Below, one piece after another: positions 13,057-29,592 of a stretch of 31,909 bases of DNA; positions within the stretch are counted from its first letter, which is position 1; each line of letters begins with the position of its first letter. The translations under genes and the position numbers were made by a program. Source of the stretch: a virus; IMG/VR virus record IMGVR_UViG_3300047551_002575, positions 1 to 31,909 of that record; one strand, written 5' to 3'. A model generated the notes under the pieces. That model made no database searches. It saw only the letters and a list, made by a program, of their open reading frames with translations, and was not told the DNA's origin.

Positions 13057-13141
13057 CTCTCATGGGCAGGCGAGGTTCCAACCCTCCTGTAAGACCCTCC
13101 CCTCCTATGCCTCTCAACGATGCACAAACCAGGAGGTCTAT
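13057..13141 (+). other. Non-coding leader before the tRNAs
   Basis: No gene. CCTCCT (13101-13106) pairs with AGGAGG (13131-13136), and a second CCTCCT copy lies at 13084-13089 as a competing partner. It is probably the 5' part of the tRNA precursor. Confidence 0.45.
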
Positions 13142-13213
13142 GGGACTGTCGCCTATTGGTTAAGGCCCACTGCTTATAACGGTGTGAAGAGGGTTCAATT
13201 CCCTCCAGTCCTA
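13142..13213 (+). tRNA. tRNA-Ile (TAT)
   Basis: Acceptor GGGACTG pairs with CAGTCCT (one G-T). D stem GCC/GGC. Anticodon loop CTTATAA gives TAT, which reads ATA, a codon rare in GC-richer hosts but common in this AT-rich phage. T arm GAGGG-TTCAATT-CCCTC. Confidence 0.85.
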
Positions 13214-13236
13214 TTGGCAATATTTTATTGCCTTAT

Positions 13237-13310
13237 GTCTTGGTAGCTCAGATGGATAGAGCCACTCACTTCTAATGAGTTGGTCGGGGGTTCGAGTCCC
13301 TCCCAAGACG
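13237..13310 (+). tRNA. tRNA-Arg (TCT)
   Basis: Acceptor GTCTTGG/CCAAGAC. Anticodon stem ACTCA/TGAGT with loop CTTCTAA, anticodon TCT, reading AGA, the dominant Arg codon in the neighbouring genes. T loop TTCGAGT. Confidence 0.9.
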
Positions 13311-13496
13311 CTTGGAGTTTATCTCCATATATAATATTGATAGAGGGTAAGTCCCTGTTATATCCTTATGAGATATATCACACTTACTCCATCAAAAAGT
13401 AGGAAGTGCAACCCCTCTCGCTGGTCCTAGTATTCTGCGTCTAGATGAAGGGAAAGGTGATTCTGTCCGCACATAGAAATCCCTCCTACCACCATT
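13311..13496 (+). other. Structured non-coding spacer in the tRNA cluster
   Basis: No credible gene. Pairings seen: GGAG/CTCC (13314-13317/13323-13326); AGAGGG (13342-13347) with CCCTCT (13413-13418), enclosing GTAAGT (13347-13352) with ACTTAC (13382-13387) and an inner TATATC/GATATA; then a second domain with two CTAG repeats around 13430-13445 and AGGGA/TCCCT near 13449 and 13480. T4 also encodes stable RNAs of unknown function among its tRNAs; this may be comparable. Confidence 0.45.
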
Positions 13497-13568
13497 CCGT
13501 TGGTAGTCTAGTGGTCAGGACAGGCAGACAATGCACTTGGAGTTCGGGTTCGATTCCCGACCAGCGGC
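13497..13568 (+). pseudogene. Degenerate tRNA (acceptor, D and T arms intact, anticodon arm unpaired)
   Basis: CCGTTGG (13497-13503) pairs with CCAGCGG (13561-13567). The D arm (TAGTCTAGTGG-TCAGGAC) is of the Glu/Asp type. The T arm is perfect (TCGGG-TTCGATT-CCCGA). The 17 bases where the anticodon arm should be do not form the five-pair stem, so no anticodon can be read with confidence. Total length is normal. Either a decayed tRNA or a tRNA-like RNA with another role. Confidence 0.65.
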
Positions 13569-13598
13569 CCACACAACACACAACACAGGAGTAAACAA

Positions 13599-13796
13599 AT
13601 GACACCTTACGAATTACGGTTTGAAATTTTTAAGCAAGCATATGCTCATGCTAATGATGAATATCTTGCTCGATATAATATAGTTGATAATCATAATCAA
13701 AATACTGGAAGTAAATGGGATTATCCATCATTTCCTTCTTATGAAAAAATTGAACAACTTGCTGAAAAAATTAATAACTTTGTAAGTTCCAAGTAA
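13599..13796 (+). CDS. Small acidic protein within the tRNA cluster, unknown
   Basis: A 65-residue product with a good ribosome site (CAGGAG, ten bases before ATG). Helical ends and a polar middle (NHNQNTGSKWDYPSFPSYEKIEQL). No signal, no membrane span, no recognised family. It is flanked by tRNA-like sequences and followed by a hairpin. Confidence 0.7.
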   Translation: MTPYELRFEIFKQAYAHANDEYLARYNIVDNHNQNTGSKWDYPSFPSYEKIEQLAEKINNFVSSK

Positions 13797-13802
13797 AATA
13801 GT

Positions 13803-13818
13803 GGGGTGGCAACACCCC
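13803..13818 (+). repeat. GC-rich hairpin after the small gene
   Basis: GGGGTG (13803-13808), loop GCAA, CACCCC (13813-13818). There is no T run, so it is more likely a processing or pause structure than a full terminator. Confidence 0.5.
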
Positions 13819-13827
13819 CGTTAGTAT

Positions 13828-13900
13828 TCCCCTATAGCTCAATTGGCAGAGCACGGTGCTGTTAACACTGGGGTTGTTCGTTCGAGTCGGACTGGGGGAG
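13828..13900 (+). tRNA. tRNA-Asn (GTT)
   Basis: Acceptor TCCCCTA/TGGGGGA (one G-T). Anticodon loop CTGTTAA. T arm GTTCG-TTCGAGT-CGGAC. Confidence 0.9.
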
Positions 13901-13902
13901 TT

Positions 13903-13974
13903 GCCCTTGTAGCTCAGTGGTAGAGCGCGGCTTTTGTAAAGCCGATGTCGCAAGTTCAAATCTTGTCGGGGGCT
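13903..13974 (+). tRNA. tRNA-Thr (TGT)
   Basis: Acceptor GCCCTTG/CGGGGGC (two G-T pairs). Anticodon stem CGGCT/AGCCG with loop TTTGTAA. T arm GCAAG-TTCAAAT-CTTGT. Its last base is the first base of a promoter -35 box. Confidence 0.9.
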
Positions 13975-14002
13975 TGACATAATACTTATTATGTCTTATA
14001 CT
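13974..14002 (+). promoter_or_regulatory. Promoter overlapping the tRNA-Thr end (TTGACA-17-TATACT)
   Basis: A perfect -35 starts on the tRNA discriminator base. The -10 TATACT (13997-14002) is at optimal spacing. It would drive the cloverleaf RNA and tRNA-Gly. Confidence 0.65.
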
Positions 14003-14025
14003 TCTTTGGTGTGAAGGAAGTACGC

Positions 14026-14096
14026 TGAGAGTGATGCCAAAAGTAAGGCACCCCGACAAGGGATACAATAGAAGGATGAAAAACCTTCCACTCTCA
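14026..14096 (+). ncRNA. Cloverleaf-shaped non-coding RNA between tRNAs
   Basis: TGAGAGTG (14026-14033) pairs with CACTCTCA (14089-14096), eight perfect pairs. After one base comes TGCC-8-GGCA (14035-14038/14047-14050), placed like a D arm. A short CCC-5-GGG (14052-14054/14060-14062) follows, and then GAAGG-8-CCTTC (14071-14075/14084-14088), which abuts the closing stem as a T arm does. It lacks the TTCRA T-loop and a seven-base anticodon loop, so it is not an ordinary tRNA. Its own promoter lies just upstream and tRNA-Gly follows four bases later. Confidence 0.55.
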
Positions 14097-14100
14097 CATT

Positions 14101-14172
14101 GCGGAGTTAGTTCAGTGGTAGAACGCTATCCTTCCAAGTTAGATGTCGTCGGTTCGAATCCGATACTCCGCT
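14101..14172 (+). tRNA. tRNA-Gly (TCC)
   Basis: Acceptor GCGGAGT/ACTCCGC. Anticodon loop CTTCCAA, stem with one T-T mismatch. T loop TTCGAAT. Confidence 0.9.
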
Positions 14173-14189
14173 TCTTAATCAAATCTTAG

Positions 14190-14218
14190 TTGACAAAAGA
14201 CTCAAAGTGCTCTAATAT
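14190..14218 (+). promoter_or_regulatory. Porin promoter (TTGACA-17-TAATAT)
   Basis: Perfect -35 (14190-14195) and a five-of-six -10 at ideal spacing. It starts a leader of about 135 bases before the porin ATG. Confidence 0.7.
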
Positions 14219-14226
14219 ACTATCCA

Positions 14227-14336
14227 ATCTTAAGATAACCTTAAGATCTTCTAAATAGTGGAACTTGATTGATGCCTCAACTACTCGCATCAATCTTGTG
14301 AATCAATCACTAGGGATTATTCCCTCAGTGTATAAT
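14227..14336 (+). promoter_or_regulatory. Porin 5' leader with two perfect hairpins and a second -10-like box
   Basis: ATCTTAAG/CTTAAGAT (14227-14234/14240-14247) and GATTGATG/CATCAATC (14267-14274/14288-14295) are perfect eight-base pairings. TATAAT at 14331-14336 may belong to a second promoter, though no good -35 precedes it. Stable 5' hairpins often protect abundant mRNAs from decay. Confidence 0.5.
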
Positions 14337-14360
14337 GTCGTTTAGTACTAAAAACTTTTT

Positions 14361-15827
14361 ATGAAACTCAAACAACTGATGCTTGCACCTGTTGCTCTGG
14401 GAATGGTTGCTCCTGTTGCTGCGAATGCCGCAGATCTTAACATGGCAGCAGTCAACCAATACTCCACTGAGCAGGTTACAAGCGTTTCGCAACTTTCTGA
14501 TGTGCAGCCTACTGATTGGGCATATCAGGCACTCAGCAACCTTGTAGAGCGTTATGGTTGCGTTGCTGGTTATCCTAACGGCACCTTTGGTGGTGGTCGT
14601 GCCATGACTCGTTATGAGGCAGCAGCACTTCTGAATGCATGTCTTGATCGTGTAACTGAAAATACTGATGAACTCAAGCGTCTTGCTAATGAGTTCCGTG
14701 ATGAACTGACCGTTATTCAAGGTAAAGTTGTTGGTCTGGAAACTAAAGTTGCTGCTCTGGAAGCAACTCAGTTTTCCACTACTACCAAACTGCGTGGTGA
14801 AGCAAACTTTGTTCTTGGTGGTGTAGATAATTACCAAACCAAGGATGGTGACATTACTCATACCGCATTCAATTATGATCTGCGTCTGAACCTGGACACT
14901 TCATTCACTGGTAAGGATCTTCTCCGTACTCGTCTGCGTTCTTCTAACTTCAGTAGCAATCCTTTTGGTTCTAGTTCTTCCCTGTTCAAACTGGACAAGG
15001 CAGACAATACCACCAGCGAAGTTGGTAATAACGTAGTTATTGACCGCTTGTTTTATCAGTTCCCTGCTTTCAATAACAAAGCAACTCTGACTGCTGGTGC
15101 CGCAGTTCGTAACACTGAAATTGCTTGGATGCCTTCTGCTTATAAGTCTGGCATTCTTGACTTCTTTGCTGTTGCTGGTACTCCAGGTGTTTATAACAAG
15201 GCAACTGGTGCTGGTTTTGGTGCTCAGTATAGTAAGAAAGGTCTGATTGCTGGTGTAAACTATGTTGCTCAAAGTGGTAACAATAGTGAAACTGGGGTAT
15301 TTGATGAGACTGGTGCTCTGAATACTCTGGCACAAATCGGTTATCGTGGTAACAACTGGGGTGCTGCATTTGGTTATCGTTATGGTACTGAAGGCACTCG
15401 CGTTCGTACTTACAACGGTCTGAATGGTGCTTCTGGTACTCTGGTTCCTGGTCAAACCTCTAACGGTTATGCCCTGAATGCTTACTGGCAACCTCAGAAA
15501 TCGGGTATTGTTCCTTCTATCTCCACTGGTTATGGTTGGAACTCTGTGAGTGGTACTGCTAGCGATGCTACCGATAGTCAGTCTTGGTTCGCTGGTCTTC
15601 AGTGGGAGGATGTATTTGTTGGTGGTAACTCTGCTGGTATTGCTATTGGACAAGCACCTACTGGTGAAAACCTTGAGAAGTCTACTCTTCTTGAGATCTT
15701 CTACAAGTATCAAGTGTCCGATAACATCAGCGTCACTCCTGCTATTATTTACGGAAGTGATAACCAACGTCTTGCTGACAACTCTTCTAATTGGGGTGGT
15801 GTGATTCAAACGACCTTTAGGTTCTGA
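14361..15827 (+). CDS. Cyanobacterial-type outer membrane porin with SLH domain
   Basis: Residues 1-23 are a signal peptide (cut ANA-A). Residues 45-95 are an S-layer homology domain (DWAYQALSNLVERYG, then GYPNGTFGG and RYEAAALLNAC) that binds peptidoglycan. A short coiled coil at 98-120 leads into a beta-barrel of the OprB/Som porin type, which ends in Phe (TTFRF), the usual outer-membrane insertion signal. It matches the layout and length of the major Som porins of marine Synechococcus. Codon use differs from its neighbours: CTG, CGT, GGT and AAC dominate instead of TTA and AGA, as in highly expressed genes or recent host origin. It has its own promoter, leader and terminator. Replacing or supplementing host outer-membrane transport during infection is a reasonable inference. 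Confidence 0.9.
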   Translation: MKLKQLMLAPVALGMVAPVAANAADLNMAAVNQYSTEQVTSVSQLSDVQPTDWAYQALSNLVERYGCVAGYPNGTFGGGRAMTRYEAAALLNACLDRVTENTDELKRLANEFRDELTVIQGKVVGLETKVAALEATQFSTTTKLRGEANFVLGGVDNYQTKDGDITHTAFNYDLRLNLDTSFTGKDLLRTRLRSSNFSSNPFGSSSSLFKLDKADNTTSEVGNNVVIDRLFYQFPAFNNKATLTAGAAVRNTEIAWMPSAYKSGILDFFAVAGTPGVYNKATGAGFGAQYSKKGLIAGVNYVAQSGNNSETGVFDETGALNTLAQIGYRGNNWGAAFGYRYGTEGTRVRTYNGLNGASGTLVPGQTSNGYALNAYWQPQKSGIVPSISTGYGWNSVSGTASDATDSQSWFAGLQWEDVFVGGNSAGIAIGQAPTGENLEKSTLLEIFYKYQVSDNISVTPAIIYGSDNQRLADNSSNWGGVIQTTFRF

Positions 15828-15837
15828 TATACATATG

Positions 15838-15861
15838 GGGGGTTGACAAACCCCCTTTTTT
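15838..15861 (+). terminator. Porin terminator with TTGACA across its loop
   Basis: GGGGGTT (15838-15844), loop GACA, AACCCCC (15849-15855), then six T. A strong intrinsic terminator that shares bases with the next promoter. Confidence 0.9.
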
Positions 15862-15871
15862 AGTGTATTAT
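15843..15871 (+). promoter_or_regulatory. Promoter inside the terminator (TTGACA-17-TATTAT)
   Basis: The -35 (15843-15848) is formed by the stem-loop junction of the porin terminator. The right arm and T run form the 17-base spacer, and the -10 TATTAT is at 15866-15871. The next ATG is 22 bases further on. Confidence 0.65.
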
Positions 15872-15892
15872 ATTTAACGAGTTAGGAGTTTT

Positions 15893-16087
15893 ATGTCTCT
15901 TATTTCCCAGCGAGATAGGCAACTTGCTATTGAAGCATTAGTATATTATCGTGATGATATACTTCGTAAAGATCAGGCATGTAAAGAACTCGGTATTTCT
16001 GACGTTCAATTAAATGATGTTGCTATGATGGAACTGAACGCTCTTATCAACTGGGTCAAATTGGAATATCAAAAAAATGAAAATTAA
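15893..16087 (+). CDS. Small helical protein, unknown
   Basis: A 64-residue product with AGGAG eight bases before ATG. It is helical and mixed-charge, with a segment (RKDQACKELGISDVQLND) that resembles a short helix-turn-helix, as in small phage DNA-binding proteins, but this is only a shape resemblance. It overlaps the next gene by 11 bases. Confidence 0.7.
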   Translation: MSLISQRDRQLAIEALVYYRDDILRKDQACKELGISDVQLNDVAMMELNALINWVKLEYQKNEN

Positions 16088-16241
16088 TCTTTGGTATTGT
16101 ACAGAAATGAAGATGTGGCGTTGGACTTTAACTGACGATCATAGACCTATCATTAAACAAGAGTCAGGTCAAAGAGAAAATCTTCGTGATGCTATGAATG
16201 ATGTAGCAAATACTGTAGAATATCTGATGAGTCAATCTTGA
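16077..16241 (+). CDS. 54-residue Trp-rich protein, unknown
   Basis: The start lies inside the end of the previous gene. The product has WYCTE, then MWRWTLTDD and an acidic helical C-terminus (LRDAMNDVANTVEYLM). The strand-like then helical pattern suggests a small folded domain. It ends six bases before tRNA-Val. Confidence 0.65.
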   Translation: MKINLWYCTEMKMWRWTLTDDHRPIIKQESGQRENLRDAMNDVANTVEYLMSQS

Positions 16242-16247
16242 CTTTTC

Positions 16248-16319
16248 GGGCGATTAACTCAGCGGTAGAGTGCGCTCCTTACAAGTGTGAAGTCACTGGT
16301 TCGAATCCAGTATCGCCCA
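16248..16319 (+). tRNA. tRNA-Val (TAC)
   Basis: Acceptor GGGCGAT/ATCGCCC. Anticodon loop CTTACAA; the stem has a T-T mismatch at the same place as in tRNA-Gly. T loop TTCGAAT. Confidence 0.9.
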
Positions 16320-16320
16320 T

Positions 16321-16342
16321 TATAAATACTTCAAAAGTATTT
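16321..16342 (+). promoter_or_regulatory. Late promoter within an inverted repeat (TATAAATA)
   Basis: An exact T4 late box (16321-16328), 20 bases before the Dps-like ATG. AAATACTT (16324-16331) and AAGTATTT (16335-16342) form an eight-base stem with a three-base loop. This is the same arrangement as at 1073. Confidence 0.7.
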
Positions 16343-16348
16343 GGTTAG

Positions 16349-16912
16349 ATGGAAGGTTTATACAAATTATTGAGTGATATTCATTCAAATCTTTTTGTTT
16401 TATTTCATAAGACTTGGGTTTTTCACTGGAATGTTATAGGTCCTGATTTCCAACAACTTCATACCTTATTCGGTGAACAATATGAATCTATGTTTGAAGA
16501 GATTGATCGTCTTGCTGAACATATGAGATTTTTGAATATTCGCCCAGTTGGAACTCTTACAAGAATTGTAGAGGTTTCTACAGTTGGACAAGGTTCGGAT
16601 ATTGTTCAAATTGATGAACTTGGACAAAGGCAAATTGTTCCAGGTAAACCAGTTGTGAAAGCGGAAGATATGGTTAAAAGACTTCTTGCGGATAATTTAA
16701 TCTTTTTAGAACTTTTAACAGAAGCATCTGAAGCAGCTGGAGAACAAAGATCATATTCAACTGAAAATATTCTTCAAGATTTAATGGAGTCTCACGGTAA
16801 GTTTGTATGGATGTTGCGTTCAATAACTGAAAAATCTCAAAAAATGTCTATAGAGGATGTTGCAACTGAAGTACTTCCACAAGAACAACCTATACAACCT
16901 CAAATTCAATAA
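16349..16912 (+). CDS. Dps-like ferritin-family protein
   Basis: The N-terminal half carries the Dps ferroxidase pattern: KTWVFHWNV (His26), LHTLFGEQYE (His38), then EIDRLAEHMR (Asp53, Glu57), at the spacing known from Dps. The family stores iron with H2O2 and often shields DNA. Residues about 70-95 (EVSTVGQGSDIVQ and following) are an extra loop not usual in Dps. The C-terminal tail is Gln/Pro-rich rather than Lys-rich, so DNA binding is not assured. The exact late promoter suggests late expression, perhaps protection from oxidative damage or packaging with the virion. Confidence 0.8.
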   Translation: MEGLYKLLSDIHSNLFVLFHKTWVFHWNVIGPDFQQLHTLFGEQYESMFEEIDRLAEHMRFLNIRPVGTLTRIVEVSTVGQGSDIVQIDELGQRQIVPGKPVVKAEDMVKRLLADNLIFLELLTEASEAAGEQRSYSTENILQDLMESHGKFVWMLRSITEKSQKMSIEDVATEVLPQEQPIQPQIQ

Positions 16913-16939
16913 TACTGATATTTAATTGATTGATTAGAA

Positions 16940-17197
16940 ATGGAAAATTTAAGAATCAGATGTCGCTCCTGTGGTAAGGAGATTGAAGGGCATCATAGTA
17001 AAACTGTATCATGTGGTTGCCCTAATATGGCAACTATTCGCGGTGATAAGATTTCGGCAGTTGACTTATCTAATATTGTTATGCTAAACTCTTATCATAC
17101 AAAAACAAAGTCTAGTGTTCTTACCAATGAAGATATTCAGTGGCAAGAAGCACGTCGTCAACGTAAAGTTAGACGATTAGATTTTGAAGTCCGTTGA
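16940..17197 (+). CDS. Small zinc-ribbon-like protein
   Basis: CRSCG (8-12) and CGCP (25-28) give a CxxC...CxC set able to bind one zinc ion, with HH at 18-19. The rest is polar, with a basic C-terminus (EARRQRKVRRLDF) fit for RNA or DNA binding. No named family recognised. Confidence 0.7.
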   Translation: MENLRIRCRSCGKEIEGHHSKTVSCGCPNMATIRGDKISAVDLSNIVMLNSYHTKTKSSVLTNEDIQWQEARRQRKVRRLDFEVR

Positions 17198-17208
17198 GGA
17201 CTTATTTT

Positions 17209-17293
17209 GGCGAGATGACTGAGTGGTTTAAAGTGGACGCCTTGAAAGCGTTTGAGGTGAAAGCCTCCGTGGGTTCGAATCCTACTCTCGCCG
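17209..17293 (+). tRNA. tRNA-Ser (TGA)
   Basis: Acceptor GGCGAGA/TCTCGCC. Anticodon stem GACGC/GCGTT with loop CTTGAAA. The long variable arm typical of tRNA-Ser is present (TTGAGGTGAAAGCCTCC). Confidence 0.92.
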
Positions 17294-17353
17294 TTTAAGA
17301 AATGTTACTAAATTTTAGATTTTTTTAATCTATATTTTTGTATCAACACAAAG

Positions 17354-17381
17354 TTGACACTCTCCAAATACTGACTAGCAT
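17354..17381 (+). promoter_or_regulatory. Probable promoter for the gnd block (TTGACA-16-TAGCAT)
   Basis: Perfect -35, weak -10. The -10 lies within ACTAG-cataa-CTAGT (17374-17388), an inverted repeat that could serve as an operator. The first ATG is 26 bases downstream. Confidence 0.5.
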
Positions 17382-17407
17382 AACTAGTAGTATTCAACCT
17401 AAAACCT

Positions 17408-17557
17408 ATGGATCAGCACACCTACGACAATTGGGTGAAGATCAAGGAGACTTTCGAAGCCTCTGGAAACATGAATAATATGTTTTATAAGAGAGCGGTT
17501 GAAATAGTCAAAACCAGAAGAGATCCTCTTGCAAAGTTTCTTGGAGATGAAAAATGA
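17408..17557 (+). CDS. 49-residue basic helical protein
   Basis: The ATG at 17408 is the first start after the promoter. Helical, with a basic second half (YKRAVEIVKTRRDPL). Its stop overlaps the start region of the next gene (ATGATG). No family recognised. Confidence 0.65.
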   Translation: MDQHTYDNWVKIKETFEASGNMNNMFYKRAVEIVKTRRDPLAKFLGDEK

Positions 17558-17760
17558 TGGAACCATTTGACGATGATTATGTAACTCGTACAGAAGTACA
17601 GGAGATGATTGATGCAGCAATACGACGACACAACCGTAATGCTTCTATCATTAGTATGTGCGTCGGTTGGGTGGTTCTTGCTCTATTTGCTGAGGGACTT
17701 TTAAGATTGATTGGTGTTATTCCACCATTACTTCCATTTCTCAAGATTACTTTGAACTAA
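17557..17760 (+). CDS. 67-residue membrane protein
   Basis: An acidic N-terminus (EPFDDDYVTRTEVQEMID) and a long hydrophobic C-terminal half with one or two membrane spans broken by IPPLLP. An adjacent in-frame ATG at 17554 is equally possible. The stop overlaps the next start (TAATG). Confidence 0.7.
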   Translation: MEPFDDDYVTRTEVQEMIDAAIRRHNRNASIISMCVGWVVLALFAEGLLRLIGVIPPLLPFLKITLN

Positions 17761-17873
17761 TGGCAACAATTACAGAAGAAGATTTACAAAAATTAAACCG
17801 AATAGTTTTTCAACAAAAAATGGAAGAACTATTTGAAGAACCATCTACTTATGAGGATGAAGAAGATGATTAA
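17760..17873 (+). CDS. 37-residue acidic peptide
   Basis: TAATG overlap with the gene before. Ends in EDEEDD. Helical. It overlaps the following membrane peptide by eight bases. Too small to assign. Confidence 0.6.
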   Translation: MATITEEDLQKLNRIVFQQKMEELFEEPSTYEDEEDD

Positions 17874-17952
17874 AACACTTTTAATTTCGACTCTAATATA
17901 TGGGTCAATTATAGGATTGTGGATTTATTGGGGACTTACACACGCTTATTAA
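17866..17952 (+). CDS. 28-residue single-span membrane peptide
   Basis: It starts inside the previous ORF. Nearly the whole peptide is one membrane span (LLISTLIYGSIIGLWIYWG). It resembles in size the tiny subunits of photosynthetic membrane complexes, but I cannot match it to one. It directly precedes gnd. Confidence 0.5.
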   Translation: MIKTLLISTLIYGSIIGLWIYWGLTHAY

Positions 17953-17962
17953 AGGTAATTAT

Positions 17963-18997
17963 ATGAAAGTAGGATTAATAGGACTTGGAAGAATGGGCGA
18001 AGGCATGTCTCGCCGTATGATGAAAGCAGGAATAGAAGTCTGGGGTTATCGGAGAAATTATGAAAAAGCAAATGAAGCATATGAAAAGGGATATGTGGAT
18101 GGAATTGCAACTACTATTGAAAATCTTGTTAAAGTAGTAAAGAAAAATAAAAATGGTAGACCACAACCAGGAGTTTTTCAGATGGTTGTTCCTGCCGAAA
18201 CTGTAGAGGAGACAATTAATGAGTTACTACGATATTGTAGTGAGGGAGATATTATTATTGATCATGGCAATAGCAATTTTAAAGACAGTCGGAAAAGAGC
18301 AGAACGTCTGGCAAAATTGGGTATCCAATATATTGATTGTGGTACTAGCGGTGGTGTTTATGGTCTGGATCGTGGATACTGTCTTATGGTTGGTGGCGGA
18401 AATACTGCGGTCGCCACTTGTGCGAGCATTTTTGATGCCCTCGCTCCAGGAATCATCGCTGCCCCAAGGACTCAATTTGACTCGGACGTAACTTCTGCTG
18501 AGTTTGGTTGGTTACATTGTGGTGGTCCAGGTGCAGGACACTTTGTGAAGATGGTGCATAACGGCATTGAGTATGGTATTATGCAAGCATATGCAGAAGG
18601 ATTTAATATCTTAAAGAATGCAAATAATGGAGCACAGTATGTTAGAGAAGGAGATGCTGAAGTTGCTCCAATGGCAGATCCAGAATCTTATTGCTATGAC
18701 ATTGATGTTGCTGAAGTTGCTGAGTTATGGCGTCGTGGTAGCGTGGTTGGCAGTTGGTTACTTGATCTTACTGCTGATGTGCTACGCAGGGATGGCAGCC
18801 TTAAACAGTTCTCTGGAGGAGTATCCGACAGTGGTGAGGGTCGTTGGACTGTTTCTGCCGCTGTGGACCTGGGGGTTCCCGCTCCTGTTATTACTACTGC
18901 CTTATTTGAAAGATTTAACTCACGCAATCTCGGATCATTCGGAGCAAAAATCTTGAATGGTATGCGTTATATGTTTGGAGGACATCATGTTAGGTAA
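17963..18997 (+). CDS. gnd: 6-phosphogluconate dehydrogenase (decarboxylating)
   Basis: It converts 6-phosphogluconate to ribulose 5-phosphate, CO2 and NADPH or NADH in the oxidative pentose phosphate pathway. GLGRMG (7-12) is the nucleotide-binding loop. DCGTSGG (125-131) binds substrate. GAGHFVKMVHNGIEY (190-204) holds the catalytic Lys196 and Asn200. At 344 residues it is the short Gnd type rather than the 470-residue form. Gnd is a known cyanophage auxiliary metabolic gene thought to supply NADPH and pentoses for phage DNA synthesis. The ribosome site AAAGG is eight bases upstream. It sits after four tiny ORFs and overlaps the next small gene. Confidence 0.95.
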   Translation: MKVGLIGLGRMGEGMSRRMMKAGIEVWGYRRNYEKANEAYEKGYVDGIATTIENLVKVVKKNKNGRPQPGVFQMVVPAETVEETINELLRYCSEGDIIIDHGNSNFKDSRKRAERLAKLGIQYIDCGTSGGVYGLDRGYCLMVGGGNTAVATCASIFDALAPGIIAAPRTQFDSDVTSAEFGWLHCGGPGAGHFVKMVHNGIEYGIMQAYAEGFNILKNANNGAQYVREGDAEVAPMADPESYCYDIDVAEVAELWRRGSVVGSWLLDLTADVLRRDGSLKQFSGGVSDSGEGRWTVSAAVDLGVPAPVITTALFERFNSRNLGSFGAKILNGMRYMFGGHHVR

Positions 18998-19106
18998 AGC
19001 ACTTATTTTTGTTGCTATTCCTTTTGTACTGTCTACACTGTATTTCGGAACACGAGGAGGATACTATGATTCCGAAGACTATAAGGGAAATGGAACCGCA
19101 CATTAG
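18987..19106 (+). CDS. 39-residue membrane or exported peptide
   Basis: It begins within the end of gnd, with GGAGGA six bases before the ATG. Residues 4-20 are hydrophobic and the tail is polar (RGGYYDSEDYKGN). It overlaps the next gene by 41 bases. Confidence 0.55.
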   Translation: MLGKALIFVAIPFVLSTLYFGTRGGYYDSEDYKGNGTAH

Positions 19107-19293
19107 GCAAAGATATCATTTTGCAATGTCTGCTTTTTCTAGAATGTATGGAGTGAAAGTTGCAATGAATGATATTCACATTAGGCAGTTTTGTATTGAA
19201 TGGTCTTATTGGGATGCTCATGCACCTTTGAGTGGTTTAGATGAGACAGACCAATACTTTTATTATGAGTATAAAAACTGGAGAGGTATATAA
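19066..19293 (+). CDS. 75-residue aromatic-rich protein, unknown
   Basis: ATG 19066 follows GAGGAGG by six bases, which decides the start over a longer frame. The product is soluble and rich in Tyr, Trp, His and Phe (FCIEWSYWDAHAP, YFYYEYKNW). Helical at the N-terminus. No family recognised. Confidence 0.7.
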   Translation: MIPKTIREMEPHIRQRYHFAMSAFSRMYGVKVAMNDIHIRQFCIEWSYWDAHAPLSGLDETDQYFYYEYKNWRGI

Positions 19294-19297
19294 AAAA

Positions 19298-19414
19298 ATG
19301 AAATATTTGATTGTTTATTTACTGAATAATAATTTATTTTTAGGAATTTTGTGCTACTTTTTGGTTATGGTACCAATTTTTGGAATTATAATTATACATA
19401 AAGATAAAAAGTAA
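19298..19414 (+). CDS. 38-residue membrane peptide
   Basis: Almost entirely hydrophobic with a Lys-rich end (HKDKK), positive-inside. It fills the gap before the fibre-like gene. No clear ribosome site, so less certain. Confidence 0.5.
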   Translation: MKYLIVYLLNNNLFLGILCYFLVMVPIFGIIIIHKDKK

Positions 19415-19423
19415 GTATAAAAA

Positions 19424-20596
19424 ATGCATTTTTCTTTGTATTTTAATTATATTTATCCTGGTGTTCGGGATAGTGGTTTTGATACACATTATATTGAAAT
19501 TTCTAATATACCTGGAGATATATCTACTACTACTTTTGAATCTATTGGTTCAATTACAAATCCGGATGGAAGCAAACCTGTTATTAAATTTTTTATAAAA
19601 AAATTTAATTCTTATTTTGAATTATTGGGTCAATTTACAATAAATCAAACTGAAGTTTATTTACCTTATGTAACTTTTAGAGAAACTTTTTCAACGGAAC
19701 AAATGCCTGGAAGTGGATTTACTAAATCTTTTGACCTTTATGCTGATAATTTATTTGAAGTCCTAACTAATACAGCTACTGCAACTCCGATTTCTTCTCC
19801 ATCATTTCAAAATGTTTCTGGATGGACAGTACTTGCTAATCCAACATATCCATTACCAGAGTCTCCTTATGCTTATGCTGGAATAGAAGATTATCGAAAT
19901 AATGGAGTTTGGGAAGTTGATTTGCCATGGTTTATTAATTATTCTGGTTATTCCCACAATAGATTATGGATTTCAACTAGAGGATTTCTAAGTTTTGAAA
20001 ATAATATATACAGAACTACTACAAGTAATCCAACAGGTGCTCTTTTTTCTACTAACACAATAGTTGTATGTGGATCAAATACATTTTTGGGAACTGATCT
20101 TGTATATAATTGTTTACAAGTACAATATGTTACAATCGGATCTGCTCCAAATAGAAGATTTGTTGTTAGATATGTTGGACAGATAAGAAAGAGTAATGTC
20201 CTGGTATGGCAAGATTTTAGATGGGAAATAGTTTTTTATGAAAGTGATAAAACTAAATTTGATATTATTGTTGATCCAAATAATACAGGGAGACAGTTTG
20301 ATACCTATAGATGTTATTCTCGTGATAATACACCTTATGCTGATCTTACACCACCTTCCACTACTAGTATTACAGGAACTGCAATAGTTAGAAATAGACG
20401 GTCTTGTAATGATATTCTTACTTATGTAAATTCTGCAGGAACAACTGTGAATTATTATTATGGAAATACTTCGAAACTGGCTGTTGCATATAACTATAAC
20501 GAACAAAGACCTATTACTTTTACTTATGCTAATAATGATCAACAATTTTACTATTCTGGGGGTCAATTTGGAATTTATACATCTCCACCTGTTTAA
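19424..20596 (+). CDS. Fibre- or adhesin-like protein
   Basis: A 390-residue, beta-rich, Asn/Thr/Ser/Tyr-rich protein without signal peptide. Residues about 165-290 (VDLPWFINYSGYSHNR, then FRWEIVFYE) resemble the N-terminal domain of the Gly-rich fibre at 9474-11420, so the two probably share a fold used in phage receptor-binding proteins. The N-terminal 130 residues may be an attachment or baseplate domain. The ribosome site is weak. It lies well away from the other fibre genes and on the opposite strand. Confidence 0.65.
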   Translation: MHFSLYFNYIYPGVRDSGFDTHYIEISNIPGDISTTTFESIGSITNPDGSKPVIKFFIKKFNSYFELLGQFTINQTEVYLPYVTFRETFSTEQMPGSGFTKSFDLYADNLFEVLTNTATATPISSPSFQNVSGWTVLANPTYPLPESPYAYAGIEDYRNNGVWEVDLPWFINYSGYSHNRLWISTRGFLSFENNIYRTTTSNPTGALFSTNTIVVCGSNTFLGTDLVYNCLQVQYVTIGSAPNRRFVVRYVGQIRKSNVLVWQDFRWEIVFYESDKTKFDIIVDPNNTGRQFDTYRCYSRDNTPYADLTPPSTTSITGTAIVRNRRSCNDILTYVNSAGTTVNYYYGNTSKLAVAYNYNEQRPITFTYANNDQQFYYSGGQFGIYTSPPV

Positions 20597-20609
20597 ATTT
20601 ATTAAAAAA

Positions 20610-20617
20610 TATAAATA
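20610..20617 (+). promoter_or_regulatory. Late promoter (TATAAATA) abutting an early promoter
   Basis: An exact T4 late box directly followed by TTGACA. It also lies in an inverted repeat, AATATT-gac-AATATT (20614-20628). It could transcribe tRNA-Pro and the downstream small gene late in infection. Confidence 0.6.
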
Positions 20618-20647
20618 TTGACAATATTAAAATATGTGTGTTATTAT
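20618..20647 (+). promoter_or_regulatory. Sigma-70-type promoter for tRNA-Pro (TTGACA-18-TATTAT)
   Basis: Perfect -35 (20618-20623) and a five-of-six -10 (20642-20647). It touches the late box just upstream, giving a dual-phase promoter. Confidence 0.6.
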
Positions 20648-20679
20648 GTACTTAGATTCATTTTGATGACTTGAAACTA

Positions 20680-20754
20680 CGGAGTATCGCCTAACTTGGT
20701 CATGGCACCTGCTTTGGGAGCAGGAATAATCTCGGTTCAAATCCGAGTACTCCG
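20680..20754 (+). tRNA. tRNA-Pro (TGG)
   Basis: Acceptor CGGAGTA/TACTCCG. D stem GCC/GGC. Anticodon stem CCTGC/GCAGG with loop TTTGGGA. T arm CTCGG-TTCAAAT-CCGAG. Confidence 0.92.
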
Positions 20755-20779
20755 ATGTCCAGTTTCTTTACTGGCACAC

Positions 20780-21055: not shown

Positions 21056-21640
21056 ATGTCATATCAAGGAATTAGAGTACAAGATAATACAAATTTTTTA
21101 CATTTGGGTGGTAACTGTGTAGAAGGAGATCCTTATACATATTCTCCTTCTGTTTGGAAATATTTAATAGATAGATTCTCAATAGAATCTATGTTAGATG
21201 TTGGTGGAGGTTTAGGTTATTGTGCAAATTTCTTCTTTAAACGGGGAATAAAAACAGTATCGATGGATGGATTAGATAAAAATATAAAAAATGCATTTTA
21301 TCCAACAATTAAATGGGATTTACTAAACGGTCCATTTATTACTTCTGTGGACTTAGTTCATTGTCAAGAAGTTGTTGAGCATCTTGAAGAAAAATATGTT
21401 CAAAATTTAATAGAAACATTTAAATCTGGAAGATACATTTGTATGACACATGCTGATGTAAATCAACCTGGAGAACATCATGTAAATTGTCAATCAACTG
21501 AATACTGGATTAAAATTATGGAAAATAATAATTGTTATTTATTGGAAGAGGATACTAAAAGAATTAGAGAAACTGCTTCTAAAGATAATTCTGGATATCT
21601 TATTTCTACAGGGTTAATATTTTGCAATAGAGATTTTTAA
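21056..21640 (+). CDS. SAM-dependent class I methyltransferase
   Basis: LDVGGGLGYCANFF (46-59) is the SAM-binding motif I; SMDGLD (about 68-73) is the acidic motif II. VDLVHCQEVVEHLEE (102-116) matches motif IV of small-molecule or sugar methyltransferases, and THADVNQPGEHH (141-152) could hold the catalytic or metal site. At 194 residues it is a single domain. It sits beside the glycan cluster and may methylate a sugar, but its target is not shown by the sequence. The structured RNA follows directly. Confidence 0.75.
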   Translation: MSYQGIRVQDNTNFLHLGGNCVEGDPYTYSPSVWKYLIDRFSIESMLDVGGGLGYCANFFFKRGIKTVSMDGLDKNIKNAFYPTIKWDLLNGPFITSVDLVHCQEVVEHLEEKYVQNLIETFKSGRYICMTHADVNQPGEHHVNCQSTEYWIKIMENNNCYLLEEDTKRIRETASKDNSGYLISTGLIFCNRDF

Positions 21641-21832
21641 CAGTTAGACCTGAAAAGTCTTAAAACTTACTCTGGTGGAGTCAAGTATGACCCTATATGT
21701 CCTCGTCGGACTGGACATAAAATATGCCGACTGGTGTGGATGGGGAAACCCCGCCTAGTTTCTTATTTCTAGTTAAAAAATAAGTGGCGAGCCTGAGTTA
21801 CTGGAGGTGGGTTGCATAAACTCACCTTTTTT
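21641..21832 (+). ncRNA. Structured RNA with pseudoknot upstream of the fucose operon
   Basis: About 190 bases without a gene. Pairings by eye are: GTTAGAC with GTCT and AAC (21643-21649/21657-21666); TATGTCC/GGACATA (21696-21702/21713-21719), whose loop GTCGG (21705-21709) can pair with CCGAC (21727-21731) to make an H-type pseudoknot; GGGG-AAA-CCCC (21742-21752); CTTATTT/AAATAAG (21762-21768/21778-21784), enclosed by CGCC/GGCG; and a terminator at the 3' end. It could be a free RNA or a leader that controls gmd. No known riboswitch class is recognised. No promoter was identified at its 5' end, so it may be processed from the methyltransferase transcript. Confidence 0.55.
21806..21832 (+). 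terminator. Intrinsic terminator before gmd
   Basis: GGTGGGTT (21806-21813) pairs with AACTCACC (21819-21826, one G-T), loop GCATA, then six T. Confidence 0.8.
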
Positions 21833-21840
21833 AGTATAAT
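21812..21840 (+). promoter_or_regulatory. gmd promoter overlapping the terminator (TTGCAT-17-TATAAT)
   Basis: A perfect -10 TATAAT (21835-21840) follows the T run. The -35 is TTGCAT, only three of six, within the hairpin loop. The geometry equals that at 15843. The ATG is 20 bases downstream. Confidence 0.55.
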
Positions 21841-21860
21841 GATAAAAAGTACTTTGCTTT

Positions 21861-22862
21861 ATGAAAGTAGCATTAATTACAGGGATTACGGGACAAGACG
21901 GATCATACCTTACAGAACTTTTATTAGAGAAAGGATATGAAGTTCATGGTATTATTCGACGTGCCTCATTAATTAATACACATAGGATTGATCATATTTA
22001 CGATCAAATTAAACTTCATTATGGAGATCTTACCGATTCTACCAATCTTGTAAGAGTTATTCAGCAAGTTCAACCAGATGAAATATATAATCTTGGTGCT
22101 CAAAGTCATGTCAAAGTTTCTTTTGAAATGCCAGAATACACTGGGCAAACTGATGGATTGGGAACACTTCGCATTCTTGAAGCAGTTCGACTTCTTGGAA
22201 TGGAAAGTAAAACTAGAATCTATCAAGCATCTACTTCTGAGATGTTTGGTAAGGTTCAAGAAATCCCGCAGAAAGAAACAACGCCTTTTTATCCTCGTTC
22301 ACCTTATGGAGTTGCAAAAGTTTATGGATACTGGATCGTCAAAAACTACCGAGAATCTTATGGACTACACGCAAGTTCTGGAATTCTTTTCAATCACGAA
22401 TCCCCTAGAAGAGGAGAAACTTTTGTCACAAGAAAAATCACTAGAGGATTATCATCTATTTCAACTGGGCAACAAGATATACTATATCTCGGGAATTTGA
22501 ATGCAAAACGTGATTGGGGACACGCTAAGGACTTTGTAGAAGCGATGTGGTTGATGTTACAACAGGATGAGGCAGATGATTATGTAATCGCTACAGGAGC
22601 GCAGTATTCGGTGCGTGAGTTTGTTGAGGCAGCATCTCCTTATTTCGGAATGAGTATTGCTTGGGAAGGTGAAGGATTGGATGAAGTTGGTATTGATAAA
22701 CTCACAAAAAGAACGGTTGTTAAAGTAAGTCCTAAATATTTTCGACCTGCTGAAGTAGAAACCTTATTAGGTGATCCTACAAAGGCAAAACAAAAATTAG
22801 GTTGGGAACCTAAAATTTCATTTGAACAATTAGTTGAGGATATGTGCATTTATGGACAGTGA
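21861..22862 (+). CDS. gmd: GDP-mannose 4,6-dehydratase
   Basis: It converts GDP-D-mannose to GDP-4-keto-6-deoxy-D-mannose, the first step to GDP-L-fucose and GDP-rhamnose-type sugars. [10 protein letters not shown] (7-16) is the NADP-binding loop of the short-chain dehydrogenase fold. The catalytic set is T125, E127 (in ASTSEMFG), Y149 and K153 (YGVAK), at the same spacing as in the E. coli enzyme. [10 protein letters not shown] is also typical of Gmd. Length 333 is slightly below the usual 345-370. First gene of the glycan operon; the next gene's start lies inside its 3' end. Confidence 0.95.
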
Positions 22863-23778
22863 TTCTAGAGTATTAGTTGCTGGTGCTCATGGTATGGTTG
22901 GATCGGCAATTGTAAGAAACCTTGAGAGTAAAGGTTACACTAACATCATTGAAGGAACTCGTGATGAAGTTGATTTTGAAAATCAAGATGATACTGAAAA
23001 ATATTTTTGTTCTAAAAAACCAGAATATGTTTTTATTGCTGCTGCTAAAGTTGGTGGTATTATGGCAAACAAAACACGTCCTGCAGAATTCATTTATGAG
23101 AATTTGATGATTCAATCAAATATTATCAATACATCATATAAGTGTGGAGTAAAAAAGTTAGTTTTCCTTGGATCATCTTGTATTTACCCAAATCATCCTA
23201 ACATTCCAATTACGGAAGATCAGTTAATGACTGGTCCTTTGGAACCCACTAATGATGCTTATGCAATCGCAAAGATTGCTGGTATTAGAATGTGTCAGGC
23301 ATATCGCCAACAATATGGATTTAATGCAATTTCTCTACAACCAACTAATTTGTATGGTGTGAATGATAATTTCGATCTAGAATCTAGTCATGTAATTCCA
23401 GGAACTATGCGTAGAATGCATGAGGCAAAGTTAAATGGAGATTCTCAATTTTTTTGTTGGGGTGATGGTTCTCCTCTTCGTGAGTTTTTGTATATTGATG
23501 ATATGGCGGAAGCATGTTATATTTGCATGAAAAAGTATAATGATTCGGATATTATTAATATTGGTACTGGATCCGATATTACAATTAAAGAACTTGCTGA
23601 AACCATTGCTGATATTACGGGATTTACTGGAGATATTAATTGGGATACTGCAAAACCAAATGGAACTCCTAGAAAAGTATTAAACGTAGATAAAATTAAA
23701 TCTTTAGGGTGGGAACCAAAAATTAATCTTCGAGAAGGTATTGAAAAAACTTATGAATGGTATAAAACATGCATTTAA
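22852..23778 (+). CDS. fcl: GDP-L-fucose synthase
   Basis: It epimerises and reduces the Gmd product to GDP-L-fucose using NADPH. GAHGMVG (11-17) binds the cofactor. LGSSCIYP (106-113) gives S108 and C110, and DAYAIAK (135-141) gives Y137 and K141, matching the S107/C109/Y136/K140 set of E. coli Fcl. The start at ATG 22852 overlaps gmd by 11 bases; the longer frame from 22834 lies further inside gmd and is less likely. The pair is complete and appears functional. Confidence 0.95.
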
Positions 23779-24224: not shown

Positions 24225-24958
24225 AAAATTTAGCAATAGTTACATGGACTAATAGTGAATATGAAGATGTATTTCCTGCATATTTTGGAAATCTTAAAAA
24301 ATATTGTTTTGAATTTGAAAAAAGTTATGTACTTATTAATAAATTATCTGAAGTAATTACTGATGATCATTTACAATTAGTAAATAATGAAAATGATTCA
24401 TACACTCAAAGACTTCTTGCATGTTTTGAGTATATAACTGAAGATTATATTCTTTATATGCAAGAAGATTTTATTTTATATGATTTTGTTGATGTTGAAG
24501 AGTTTAAAAGATGTTTTAATTATTTAAAAGAAAGTGATTGTTCGTGCATTAGAATGATTCGTTCAAATTGTAATTCATTAACTAATTTAGTTAATGAAAA
24601 AATATATAAAATTTTGCATGATGAAGTTCCCGATCTTTCTTTTACCCAGCAACCATCTATATGGAAAAGGAAAGATTTTGTTGAAGTAATATCTAAATTA
24701 AATCCAAAAACATATAGAGATCTTGAATCGTATGGATCTTATGATGCTAGTAAAATGATGATGAATATGGGAATGTACTCATCATTTTATTTTGATGAAA
24801 AATCTGAACCAAGAGGTGGACATTTTGATAGTAAGATATTTCCATATATTGCTACTGCATTGAGTAAAGGTAAATGGAATAAAACAGAGTATTCTAAAGA
24901 AATTAAATTTTTAAGTAAAGAATATAATATAAATCTTGAAAGTAGAGGATGTATATAA
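24221..24958 (+). CDS. Putative glycosyltransferase (GT-A type)
   Basis: A Rossmann-like start (LAIVTWTNSEYEDVFPAYF), then EDYILYMQEDFILYD (around 74-88), which looks like a GT-A metal-binding acidic motif, followed by a C-terminal part with SEPRGGHFDSK. No signal or membrane span. Its place between fcl and the HAD-nucleotidyltransferase fusion supports a sugar-transfer role. The family is not identified. Confidence 0.6.
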   Translation: MKNLAIVTWTNSEYEDVFPAYFGNLKKYCFEFEKSYVLINKLSEVITDDHLQLVNNENDSYTQRLLACFEYITEDYILYMQEDFILYDFVDVEEFKRCFNYLKESDCSCIRMIRSNCNSLTNLVNEKIYKILHDEVPDLSFTQQPSIWKRKDFVEVISKLNPKTYRDLESYGSYDASKMMMNMGMYSSFYFDEKSEPRGGHFDSKIFPYIATALSKGKWNKTEYSKEIKFLSKEYNINLESRGCI

Positions 24959-26334
24959 TGAATAAATTGGTAATTTTTGATCTCGATGGAGTTCTTATTG
25001 ATAGCAGAGAAATGCATTATGAAGCACTTAATCGTGCCTTAGGAAATATTTCTTGGGATTATGTAATTAGTAGGGAAGAACATCTTAGTTTATATGATGG
25101 TCTTCCTACTTCTAGAAAACTTTCAATGCTTACTGAAAAGAAAGGACTTCCAATAGATAAACATCAAAAAATTTGGGAAGATAAACAAAAAGAAACTATT
25201 GAAATTTTTTCTGATTTGGAAAATGATTATGAGTTGATGCATTATTTTCAGCAGTTGAAAAATAGAAATTATCAAATTGCTGTTGCTAGTAATAGTATTC
25301 GTAACACTGTAAAATTGGTTTTACTTAAATTAGGAGTGTTAGAATTCGTTGACTATTATGTAAGTAATGAAGATGTAACTCGCAATAAACCATTTCCTGA
25401 AATGTATTGGAAGTGTATGATTGCTTGTAATGCACTTCCCAAAGATACTGTAATTTTTGAAGATAGTCATATTGGTAGACAAGGTGCTATCGATAGTAAA
25501 TCTCATCTTATTGCTATTGAAAATAGGAATGATCTAAATCAAGAAAAAATTAATAAAGTATTTGAAATATTTACATCTAAAAAACCTACAATTGTACCTT
25601 GGAAATCTGATAAAATGAATGTTCTTATTCCTATGGCAGGTGCTGGTAGTAGATTCTCCAGTGCTGGATATACATTCCCCAAACCATTAATTGAAGTTAA
25701 TGGTAAACCTATGATTCAAGTAGTGGTTGAGAATTTGAATATTGAAGCAAACTATACTTTTATTGTTCAAAAAGAACACTATGAGAAGTATAGTCTCCAA
25801 TATCTTTTGAATTTAATTGCCCCCAACTGCAATATTGTTCAGGTTGATGGAATTACTGAAGGTGCTGCCTGCACCACATTACTTGCCAAAGAGTTCATTG
25901 ATAATGATGCTCCTCTTGTAATGGCAAACTCTGACCAGTTTGTGGAATGGAACAGTAATGAATGTCTATATGCATTTAATGCTGATGGCATTGATGGTGG
26001 TATTGTTACTTTCAAAGCAACTCATCCCAAGTGGTCTTATGCAAAACTTGGTGAAGATGGATTTGTTTCTGAGGTCGCAGAGAAAAAACCAATTAGTGAC
26101 AATGCAACTGTTGGAATTTATTATTGGAGTAAAGGATCTGATTACGTGAAATATGCCGAACAGATGATTGAAAAAAATATTAGAACTAATAATGAGTTTT
26201 ATGTTTGTCCTGTATTTAATGAAGCAATTAGTGATGGTAAAAAAATCAGAGTAAAGGATATTGATCGTATGTGGGGTATTGGAACTCCAGAAGATCTTAA
26301 TTACTTTTTAGAATACTATAAAGGAGAATTTTAA
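24958..26334 (+). CDS. Fusion of HAD phosphatase and sugar nucleotidyltransferase
   Basis: Residues 1-215 are a HAD-like hydrolase: FDLDGVL (7-13) with the nucleophile Asp8, VASNS near 115-120, a Lys before PFPEMYW, and FEDSHIGRQGA near 170-180. Residues 220-459 are a nucleotidyltransferase: IPMAGAGSRF, then PKPLIEVNGKPMI and MANSDQFVEW. One protein could dephosphorylate and activate a sugar, for example a heptose- or mannose-type pathway, but the substrate cannot be read. ATG 24958 is chosen because AGAGGA lies nine bases upstream. TAATG overlaps on both sides. Confidence 0.85.
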   Translation: MNKLVIFDLDGVLIDSREMHYEALNRALGNISWDYVISREEHLSLYDGLPTSRKLSMLTEKKGLPIDKHQKIWEDKQKETIEIFSDLENDYELMHYFQQLKNRNYQIAVASNSIRNTVKLVLLKLGVLEFVDYYVSNEDVTRNKPFPEMYWKCMIACNALPKDTVIFEDSHIGRQGAIDSKSHLIAIENRNDLNQEKINKVFEIFTSKKPTIVPWKSDKMNVLIPMAGAGSRFSSAGYTFPKPLIEVNGKPMIQVVVENLNIEANYTFIVQKEHYEKYSLQYLLNLIAPNCNIVQVDGITEGAACTTLLAKEFIDNDAPLVMANSDQFVEWNSNECLYAFNADGIDGGIVTFKATHPKWSYAKLGEDGFVSEVAEKKPISDNATVGIYYWSKGSDYVKYAEQMIEKNIRTNNEFYVCPVFNEAISDGKKIRVKDIDRMWGIGTPEDLNYFLEYYKGEF

Positions 26335-28572: not shown

Positions 28573-29592
28573 ATGAAATTAGTACCAAACTGCAAAAAAT
28601 ATTGGGAATTTATTAGGGAACTAAGATTCCACCCAGAAAATATTTCTGGGTTTGTGATTGCCGAAGAAGTATCTACTGAACAGCAAACACAATATATGCA
28701 AAAATATAATGATAATTATTTTATTTGTTTAGATGAAACTGAAACACCTGTTGGATTTATAGGAGAAGTTGATAATGATATTAGATTAGCAGTTCATCCT
28801 AGATATAAAAATAAAGGTGTAGGAAAATTTATGTTGGATGAGTTCATGAAAACTCATCCATTTGCAACTGCTAAAGTATTGCATGATAACATTGCAAGTC
28901 TTAAAACTTTTTATTCTTGTGGATTTGTTTCTCATAAATTTGATGGAAAGTTTTTTTATCTATCAAAAACTGAACATGGTTATTATAAAATAAAGCATAA
29001 TCCATATAAGATTGTGCAAATGTTTGAAGAGTCAATTGCAGATTATACTGGAGCTCCATATGCAATTGCTTTAGATTCTTGTACTAATGCTCTTTTCTTA
29101 TGTTGCAAGTATTTGAATGTTGATGAGGTTTCAATACCATCAAAAACATATCTTTCTGTTCCACAATCTATTATGCAATCTGGTGGTAAAATAAAATGGG
29201 ACGAGAGTAGAAATAATTGGACAGGAACTTATCAATTGCAACCTTATCCTATCTGGGACTGTGCAAAAAGATTAACTTCTAATATGTACATACCTGGATC
29301 TTTTATGTGCCTTTCATTTCATATCAAGAAAACTTTAAAGATAGGAAAAGGTGGAATGATTCTTACTGATAATTTAGATGCAGTCGATTGGTTTAAAAAG
29401 GCAAGATATGAGGGAAGAAGTGAAAAAATGTATCATGAAGATAATATTGAACGTATAGGGTGGAACATGTATATGACTCCTCAACAAGCTGCACATGGTC
29501 TATGTTTACTTCAAAATTATCCTCTTCATGTTCCAGATTTGGGAGAAAATAATGGGTATCGTGATCTAAGAGAATTTGCATTGTTCAGATAA
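28573..29592 (+). CDS. Fusion of GNAT acetyltransferase and short DegT-type aminotransferase
   Basis: Residues 1-135 are a GNAT domain: RLAVHPRYKNKGVGKFML carries the acetyl-CoA loop. Residues 140-339 are DegT/EryC1/StrS-like: DYTGAPYAIALDSCTNALFL, then SIPSKTYLSVPQSI, WDCAKRL and SFHIKKTLKIGKGGMILT with the PLP-binding Lys in the usual place. The aminotransferase part is about 200 residues, half the normal 370, with the C-terminal half missing. Together they could make an N-acetylamino sugar, or the second domain could have become a binding or regulatory part. Confidence 0.75.
   Translation: MKLVPNCKKYWEFIRELRFHPENISGFVIAEEVSTEQQTQYMQKYNDNYFICLDETETPVGFIGEVDNDIRLAVHPRYKNKGVGKFMLDEFMKTHPFATAKVLHDNIASLKTFYSCGFVSHKFDGKFFYLSKTEHGYYKIKHNPYKIVQMFEESIADYTGAPYAIALDSCTNALFLCCKYLNVDEVSIPSKTYLSVPQSIMQSGGKIKWDESRNNWTGTYQLQPYPIWDCAKRLTSNMYIPGSFMCLSFHIKKTLKIGKGGMILTDNLDAVDWFKKARYEGRSEKMYHEDNIERIGWNMYMTPQQAAHGLCLLQNYPLHVPDLGENNGYRDLREFALFR

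Follow-up and report, generated by a model that had tools for sequence, protein, structure and literature searches.

What kind of RNA is encoded in a short gap between two genes of a viral genome, and does it act on the gene behind it or belong to the gene in front of it? The question is raised by an IMG/VR virus record of 31.9 kb (the window), where the gap from a methyltransferase-like open reading frame (stop codon at 21640) to gmd (start at 21861) is 220 nt long and where positions 21641-21832 are non-coding according to the ORF list, as the preliminary description of the locus had already stated. The upstream CDS (21056..21640) is an ORF call with a Pfam match to Methyltransf_23 at 23.3 bits, which is below the 27-bit cut-off (E 5.8e-5). 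The first downstream gene is gmd (GDP-mannose 4,6-dehydratase, 21861..22862; PF16363, E 3.5e-155), followed by an fcl-like NAD-dependent epimerase (22837..23778; PF01370, E 3.6e-63), which by its position is a GDP-L-fucose synthase. These genes, and all features of the gap described below, lie on the plus strand.

When the window is searched with cmscan, the full wcaG model of Rfam (RF01761, model positions 1-98) is matched at 21697..21798 with 75.9 bits, at a gathering cut-off of 42 and with an E value of 1.2e-12 over the whole window. The Rfam search that the preliminary description had proposed returns, in other words, a known RNA, and since the window matches RF01761, the claim that no class fits the element fails. 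The setting is also that of wcaG, in that the relatives are Synechococcus phages and gmd and fcl stand downstream. The element in the window is an ordinary member of the known wcaG family, which it resembles in sequence, structure, cyanophage setting and exopolysaccharide-gene neighbourhood. Weinberg et al. (2010, PMC2864571) described the family in marine metagenomes and cyanophages, typically near exopolysaccharide or high-light genes, and proposed it as a candidate riboswitch, a view that has been repeated without experiment in later cyanophage papers (PMC9964418, PMC9602691, PMC10665884, PMC12197685). Rfam gives RF01761 the type Cis-reg, i.e., treats it as part of the 5' UTR of the gene that follows. 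What the papers found do not describe, and what is therefore new with respect to the searchable literature, is that the RNA is an array of modules, that it is docked to the upstream stop codon and that it is followed by a promoter overlapping a terminator; the literature on Syn9 non-coding RNA and on exonuclease-resistant RNA in phages yielded nothing usable.

The Rfam model spans only the last two modules of such an array, and the 5' modules lie outside it. In the window there are three modules, in the order A-C-D, and the first of them starts 5 nt past the stop codon of the methyltransferase-like CDS. Module A (21646..21693) is matched at 21645-21693, with 51.9 bits and an E value of 1.2e-14, by an independently built model R1, made from 30 A modules of which none is from the window. 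Its hairpin joins AGAC (21646-21649) to GTCT (21657-21660) across the loop CTGAAAA, from which U21651 forms a tertiary pair with A21669, and is followed by TGGTGGAGTCAAGTATGACCC with the stem GUCA/UGAC. Module C opens with an H-type pseudoknot (21696..21731), where the seven pairs of S1 connect TATGTCC (21696-21702) with GGACATA (21713-21719) and where S2 connects the loop GTCGG (21705-21709) with CCGAC (21727-21731). Then comes the C anchor TGGTGTGGATGGGGAAACCCCGCC (21732..21755), a bulged hairpin within RF01761, with a GGGG/CCCC stem at 21742-21752. The terminal module D has a second H-type pseudoknot (21755..21784), in which S1, CTAG (21755-21758) with CTAG (21769-21772), is interleaved with S2, CTTATTT (21762-21768) with AAATAAG (21778-21784). 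The D anchor GTGGCGAGCCTGA (21784..21796) is the conserved 3' end both of RF01761 and of the arrays. Behind it lie a predicted intrinsic terminator (21803..21832), with an 11-pair stem (21803-21829) and a T run, and a predicted sigma70-type promoter (21812..21840), with TTGCAT (21812-21817) and TATAAT (21835-21840) separated by 17 nt, so placed that TTGCAT begins within the terminator hairpin.

Much of this structure had been noticed before: the seven-pair hairpin and its loop pairing with CCGAC, two more stems (GGGG/CCCC at 21742-21752 and CTTATTT/AAATAAG at 21762-21784) and a proper terminator are all present. The D pseudoknot, the 5' module at 21646-21693 and the promoter-like TTGCAT-17-TATAAT had been missed. 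The minimum free energy of folding of the stretch is -55.9, compared with -46.9 +/- 4.0 for shuffles (z = -2.25), and the structure in the window exceeds chance.

How far this architecture is shared follows from the relatives. Viral contigs were scanned with an exact pattern, which gave at least 120 stretches, the core was found by BLAST in 66 phage records, all of them Synechococcus phages or 'Cyanophage' entries, and the loci were aligned by eye and by script. In these loci, modules of about 54 nt follow one another in tandem, with a peak in their spacing at 52-55 nt, and wcaG makes up the 3' end of the resulting array. Each module consists of a pseudoknot, or of a hairpin with one tertiary pair, and then of a conserved UGGU-hairpin anchor, and four anchors are distinguished: B is CTGGTCGG..., A is TGGTGGAGTC...GACCC, C is TGGTGCGGATGGG...CCCGCC, and D is GTGGCGAGCC or GTGGCGTGC. 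Their order is nearly constant, (B)(A)-C-D, and among 173 unique arrays ACD occurs 66 times, CD 43 times, BACD 38 times and ABCD 11 times, with D always last because the arrays were selected for D. Pseudoknots and hairpins with 7-nt loops interchange in front of the same anchor. Single modules also occur at other gene junctions, where they lie behind one gene's stop codon and ahead of the ATG that follows, and for many isolated B modules the sequence is CTGGTCGGGAGCAAACCCCTT-ATG, with the start codon of the next gene directly behind the module.

Covariation among the relatives, a check that the preliminary description had called for, supports the pseudoknots of the arrays. In the D pseudoknot, 99.7% of the alignment cells are paired and 7 of 11 pairs have changed on both sides, and its covariation score is reached by no shuffle. 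Because the search pattern fixed some columns of the D alignment, the invariance of these columns is uninformative; the covarying columns lie mostly outside the pattern. The G-U pairs in the D pseudoknot imply that the RNA has the sequence of the plus strand. In a helix search, 78 of 80 D modules were found to contain an H-type pseudoknot, as did 10 of 160 shuffles; for the C anchors, one lies upstream in 110 of 156 cases, compared with 20 of 312 shuffles. Many different complementary S1 and S2 stems occur among the C and D modules, and relatives of C carry compensatory changes such as ATGCCC/GGGCAT together with GTCGT/ACGAC. The A and B modules mostly have a hairpin with a 7-nt loop in place of the pseudoknot. 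The helix search found no ordinary pseudoknot in these type I hairpins, where a single covarying loop pair alone is supported: loop base 2 and the base four positions ahead of UGG form a C-G or U-A pair in 99% of 80 unique sequences. Counts of this kind are inflated by related sequences.

Three other ideas about the origin or role of the modules were rejected. A sponge for CsrA was considered, as GGA is frequent in loops and anchors, but by inspection the first loop in the window (CUGAAAA) and the D anchor lack it. A coding role was considered on account of a frequent GGAG...ATG in module A, but this ATG lacks conservation and the reading frames stop after a few codons. When 84,980 species genomes were searched with one exact pattern of the C anchor, none of the 34 matches was cyanobacterial by title, and they were taken as chance rather than as a sign of host origin. 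Small ORFs have been annotated across arrays in Syn9 (gp208, L256 2917-3075), Syn1 (Syn1_206, L261 3034-3123) and S-BM3 (SBM3_00091, L003 3024-3113), and are probably spurious. At two loci (L005 2768-2974, L259 3085-3285) a small gene (MATKGTAAKSASG...) has modules on either side, and upstream of it, in the module gap, stands a CTAAATA site that resembles a late promoter.

The second part of the question, to which transcript the RNA belongs, turns on what the arrays have as constant neighbours. In 151 of 169 arrays (89%), the distance from an ORF stop codon to the first anchor downstream of it is at most 45 nt, as it is for 13.7% of random positions. Where a CDS is annotated to end near the array in an isolate locus, the start of the first module falls between -19 and +9 nt relative to the stop codon, which in arrays can lie inside the first hairpin; a few arrays start just behind a tRNA. 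At the other end, an intrinsic terminator follows 93 of 105 arrays, or 143 of 169 (about 85%) in a wider set. Of the 93 arrays with a terminator, 85 have a -10 box, mostly 2-8 nt past the stem, and a -35-like hexamer stands exactly 17 nt before the -10 (TTGCAT in 48, TTTACA in 14 and TTGACA in 9 cases). The promoter score is 9.5 or more within 100 nt downstream of 75% of the 169 arrays, compared with 10% of shuffles, and upstream of 7% of them. The sigma70-type promoter is usually spaced by 17 nt and overlaps the terminator hairpin. Just after the array in Syn9 (L256) and in S-CREM1 (L010) there is a perfect TTGACA-17-TATAAT, and no terminator T run was found behind the array at these two loci; some arrays have a tRNA or a gene directly behind them and no terminator. 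At one locus (L104), about 700 nt past the array, a terminator and a promoter overlap in the same way (GAGTTGACTAAACTC...TTTTTTTGTATAAT) with no array before them.

From family membership, modularity, pseudoknots, stop-codon docking, terminator and promoter-like sequence, as obtained by sequence comparison, we infer that the promoter is used and what the element does. The A-C-D array would be the 3' end of a transcript that reads through the upstream methyltransferase gene. Transcription would end at the intrinsic terminator just past the last module and restart at the sigma70-type promoter, part of which lies within the terminator hairpin. With the promoter downstream of the array, the predicted start of the gmd mRNA is near 21847 and the element would not be included in it. 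Promoter, terminator and any discrete RNA are predictions in this scheme, and we hold the scheme itself, wcaG as a 3'-end element of the upstream transcript with terminator and predicted promoter before gmd, with about even confidence. The predicted promoter between array and gene argues against a placement of wcaG in the 5' UTR of gmd.

As to function, serial pseudoknots at operon ends and gene junctions would block exonucleases, and this would either protect the upstream mRNA or leave a stable 3'-derived RNA during infection. Enterobacterial REP elements and the exonuclease-resistant RNAs known from RNA viruses block exonucleases in this way. They are like the array in their 3' UTR or intercistronic position and in their serial compact structures; the likeness is one of position and structure, and there is no homology to the window array. 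Such a mechanical nuclease barrier is rated the most likely mechanism, albeit tentatively. The 3'-end element may otherwise act in antitermination, as a decoy or as a small RNA released by processing, and it may be a discrete regulatory RNA, the other reading of the preliminary description. Tandem repetition of a pseudoknot, two to three times, is also known from STAXI (Weinberg et al. 2010, PMC2864571), whose taxa and gene contexts differ from those of wcaG, and Rfam gives no STAXI match in the window at the gathering threshold or at E values up to 5.

Two alternatives are each judged unlikely. Type III antitoxin RNAs bind a toxin ribonuclease, and their loci consist of tandem pseudoknots followed by a terminator. 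In outline the serial pseudoknots and intrinsic terminator of the array resemble such ToxI-like loci, and an excised array might then act in trans as a decoy or counter-defence RNA, by binding a host RNA-binding protein, a toxin ribonuclease or a defence system. An abiF RNA (RF03085, 49.3 bits) lies in the same window at 13101-13137, beside the tRNA cluster, and another near wcaG in S-CREM1 (L010 3757-3793); Phd-type antitoxin genes are close by as well. Against a decoy, the modules differ from each other where type III antitoxins have near-identical repeats, gmd and no ToxN-type toxin gene stands downstream, and the arrays, which adjoin an ORF stop codon, show no upstream promoter signal of their own beyond background.

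The array could, alternatively, be a processive antiterminator in cis, which would modify RNA polymerase to pass the terminator into the downstream operon. EAR (the epsC motif) and the put RNA of phage HK022 are processive antiterminators of this kind, and EAR, compared here for its possible action alone, is like wcaG a structured RNA tied to exopolysaccharide operons. The terminator just behind the array at most loci, the long polysaccharide operons often found downstream and the serial modules within and at the end of operons would all suit such a role. Yet a promoter-like sequence directly downstream makes readthrough unnecessary, some arrays have no terminator, and the window array is modular, stands at an operon end and has no sequence or Rfam model match to EAR/epsC.

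A 5' leader of the sugar operon that works as a metabolite riboswitch or attenuator, with terminator formation controlled by a ligand (a nucleotide sugar, for example), is judged quite unlikely. Part of this earlier proposal holds, since there is a structured, pseudoknotted RNA with a terminator directly behind it, adjoining gmd and fcl, and wcaG is listed as a riboswitch candidate by exopolysaccharide and high-light genes (PMC2864571). Of about 163 downstream ORFs, moreover, 77 are of the epimerase/dehydratase type and 24 are cytidylyltransferases, so that about 100 are sugar-nucleotide genes. This enrichment is the best remaining argument for a cis-regulator, and it is not explained by a pure 3'-end element, except via shared genomic location. 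A riboswitch that acts on gmd must be part of the gmd mRNA, and usually it has an alternative pairing with the terminator. The complementarity of the terminator arms to their own array does not exceed that to the arrays of other phages, and no attenuator pairing of array and terminator above the level of swapped arrays was found. A riboswitch on gmd is disfavoured because this alternative pairing was not found and because a promoter-like sequence is conserved between array and gene. Attenuation before gmd is further weakened by the variable copy number of modules and the interchange of their pseudoknots, by the fact that the conserved neighbour is a stop codon on the upstream side and by the varied genes behind the arrays, which include tRNAs or hli genes in S-PM2, Syn9, S-CAM1, S-IOM18 and S-BM3; the genes upstream of the arrays are varied too.

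Very unlikely, finally, is an intercistronic control that couples or represses translation through modules that overlap a stop codon and end beside the start codon of the next gene, a reading for which the many isolated B modules reading CTGGTCGGGAGCAAACCCCTT-ATG and the stop codon inside the first hairpin speak, and against which stands the terminal D array, the most conserved form, which has no gene of the same transcript behind it.

The remainder of the window has some features of its own. Nine tRNA genes were found with ARAGORN at 13141-20755, including those for Ile(TAT), Arg, His(ATG), Asn, Thr, Gly, Val, Ser and Pro. One ORF (14361-15827) combines S-layer homology and OprB carbohydrate porin domains (Pfam), which is unusual for a phage. 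A ferritin-like protein (16349-16912) and a 6-phosphogluconate dehydrogenase (17963-18997) are probable auxiliary metabolic genes, and there are two possible fusions, of a HAD hydrolase with a MobA-like NTP transferase (24949-26334) and of a GNAT acetyltransferase with a piece of a DegT aminotransferase (28573-29592).

For the family as a whole, the reading as a 3'-end element means that the annotation of wcaG as a cis-regulator before exopolysaccharide genes is probably wrong and that wcaG is probably not the metabolite sensor it was taken for; the better reading is a structured RNA of the upstream transcript, placed at its 3' end or between its cistrons. The more specific proposal, that wcaG is no riboswitch and is instead the 3' end of a stop-codon-docked, serial-pseudoknot RNA that protects or releases stable phage RNA, or acts as a decoy in trans, is put forward with somewhat less than even confidence. 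The 5' modules, which make up a large part of many wcaG RNAs, are absent from the Rfam model. The cis-regulator annotation in cyanophage genomes and recent reviews may rest on a neighbourhood effect, and the RNA would then belong to the preceding transcript. If arrays indeed protect or release RNA, they would be a DNA-phage counterpart of the exonuclease-resistant 3'-UTR RNAs of viruses.
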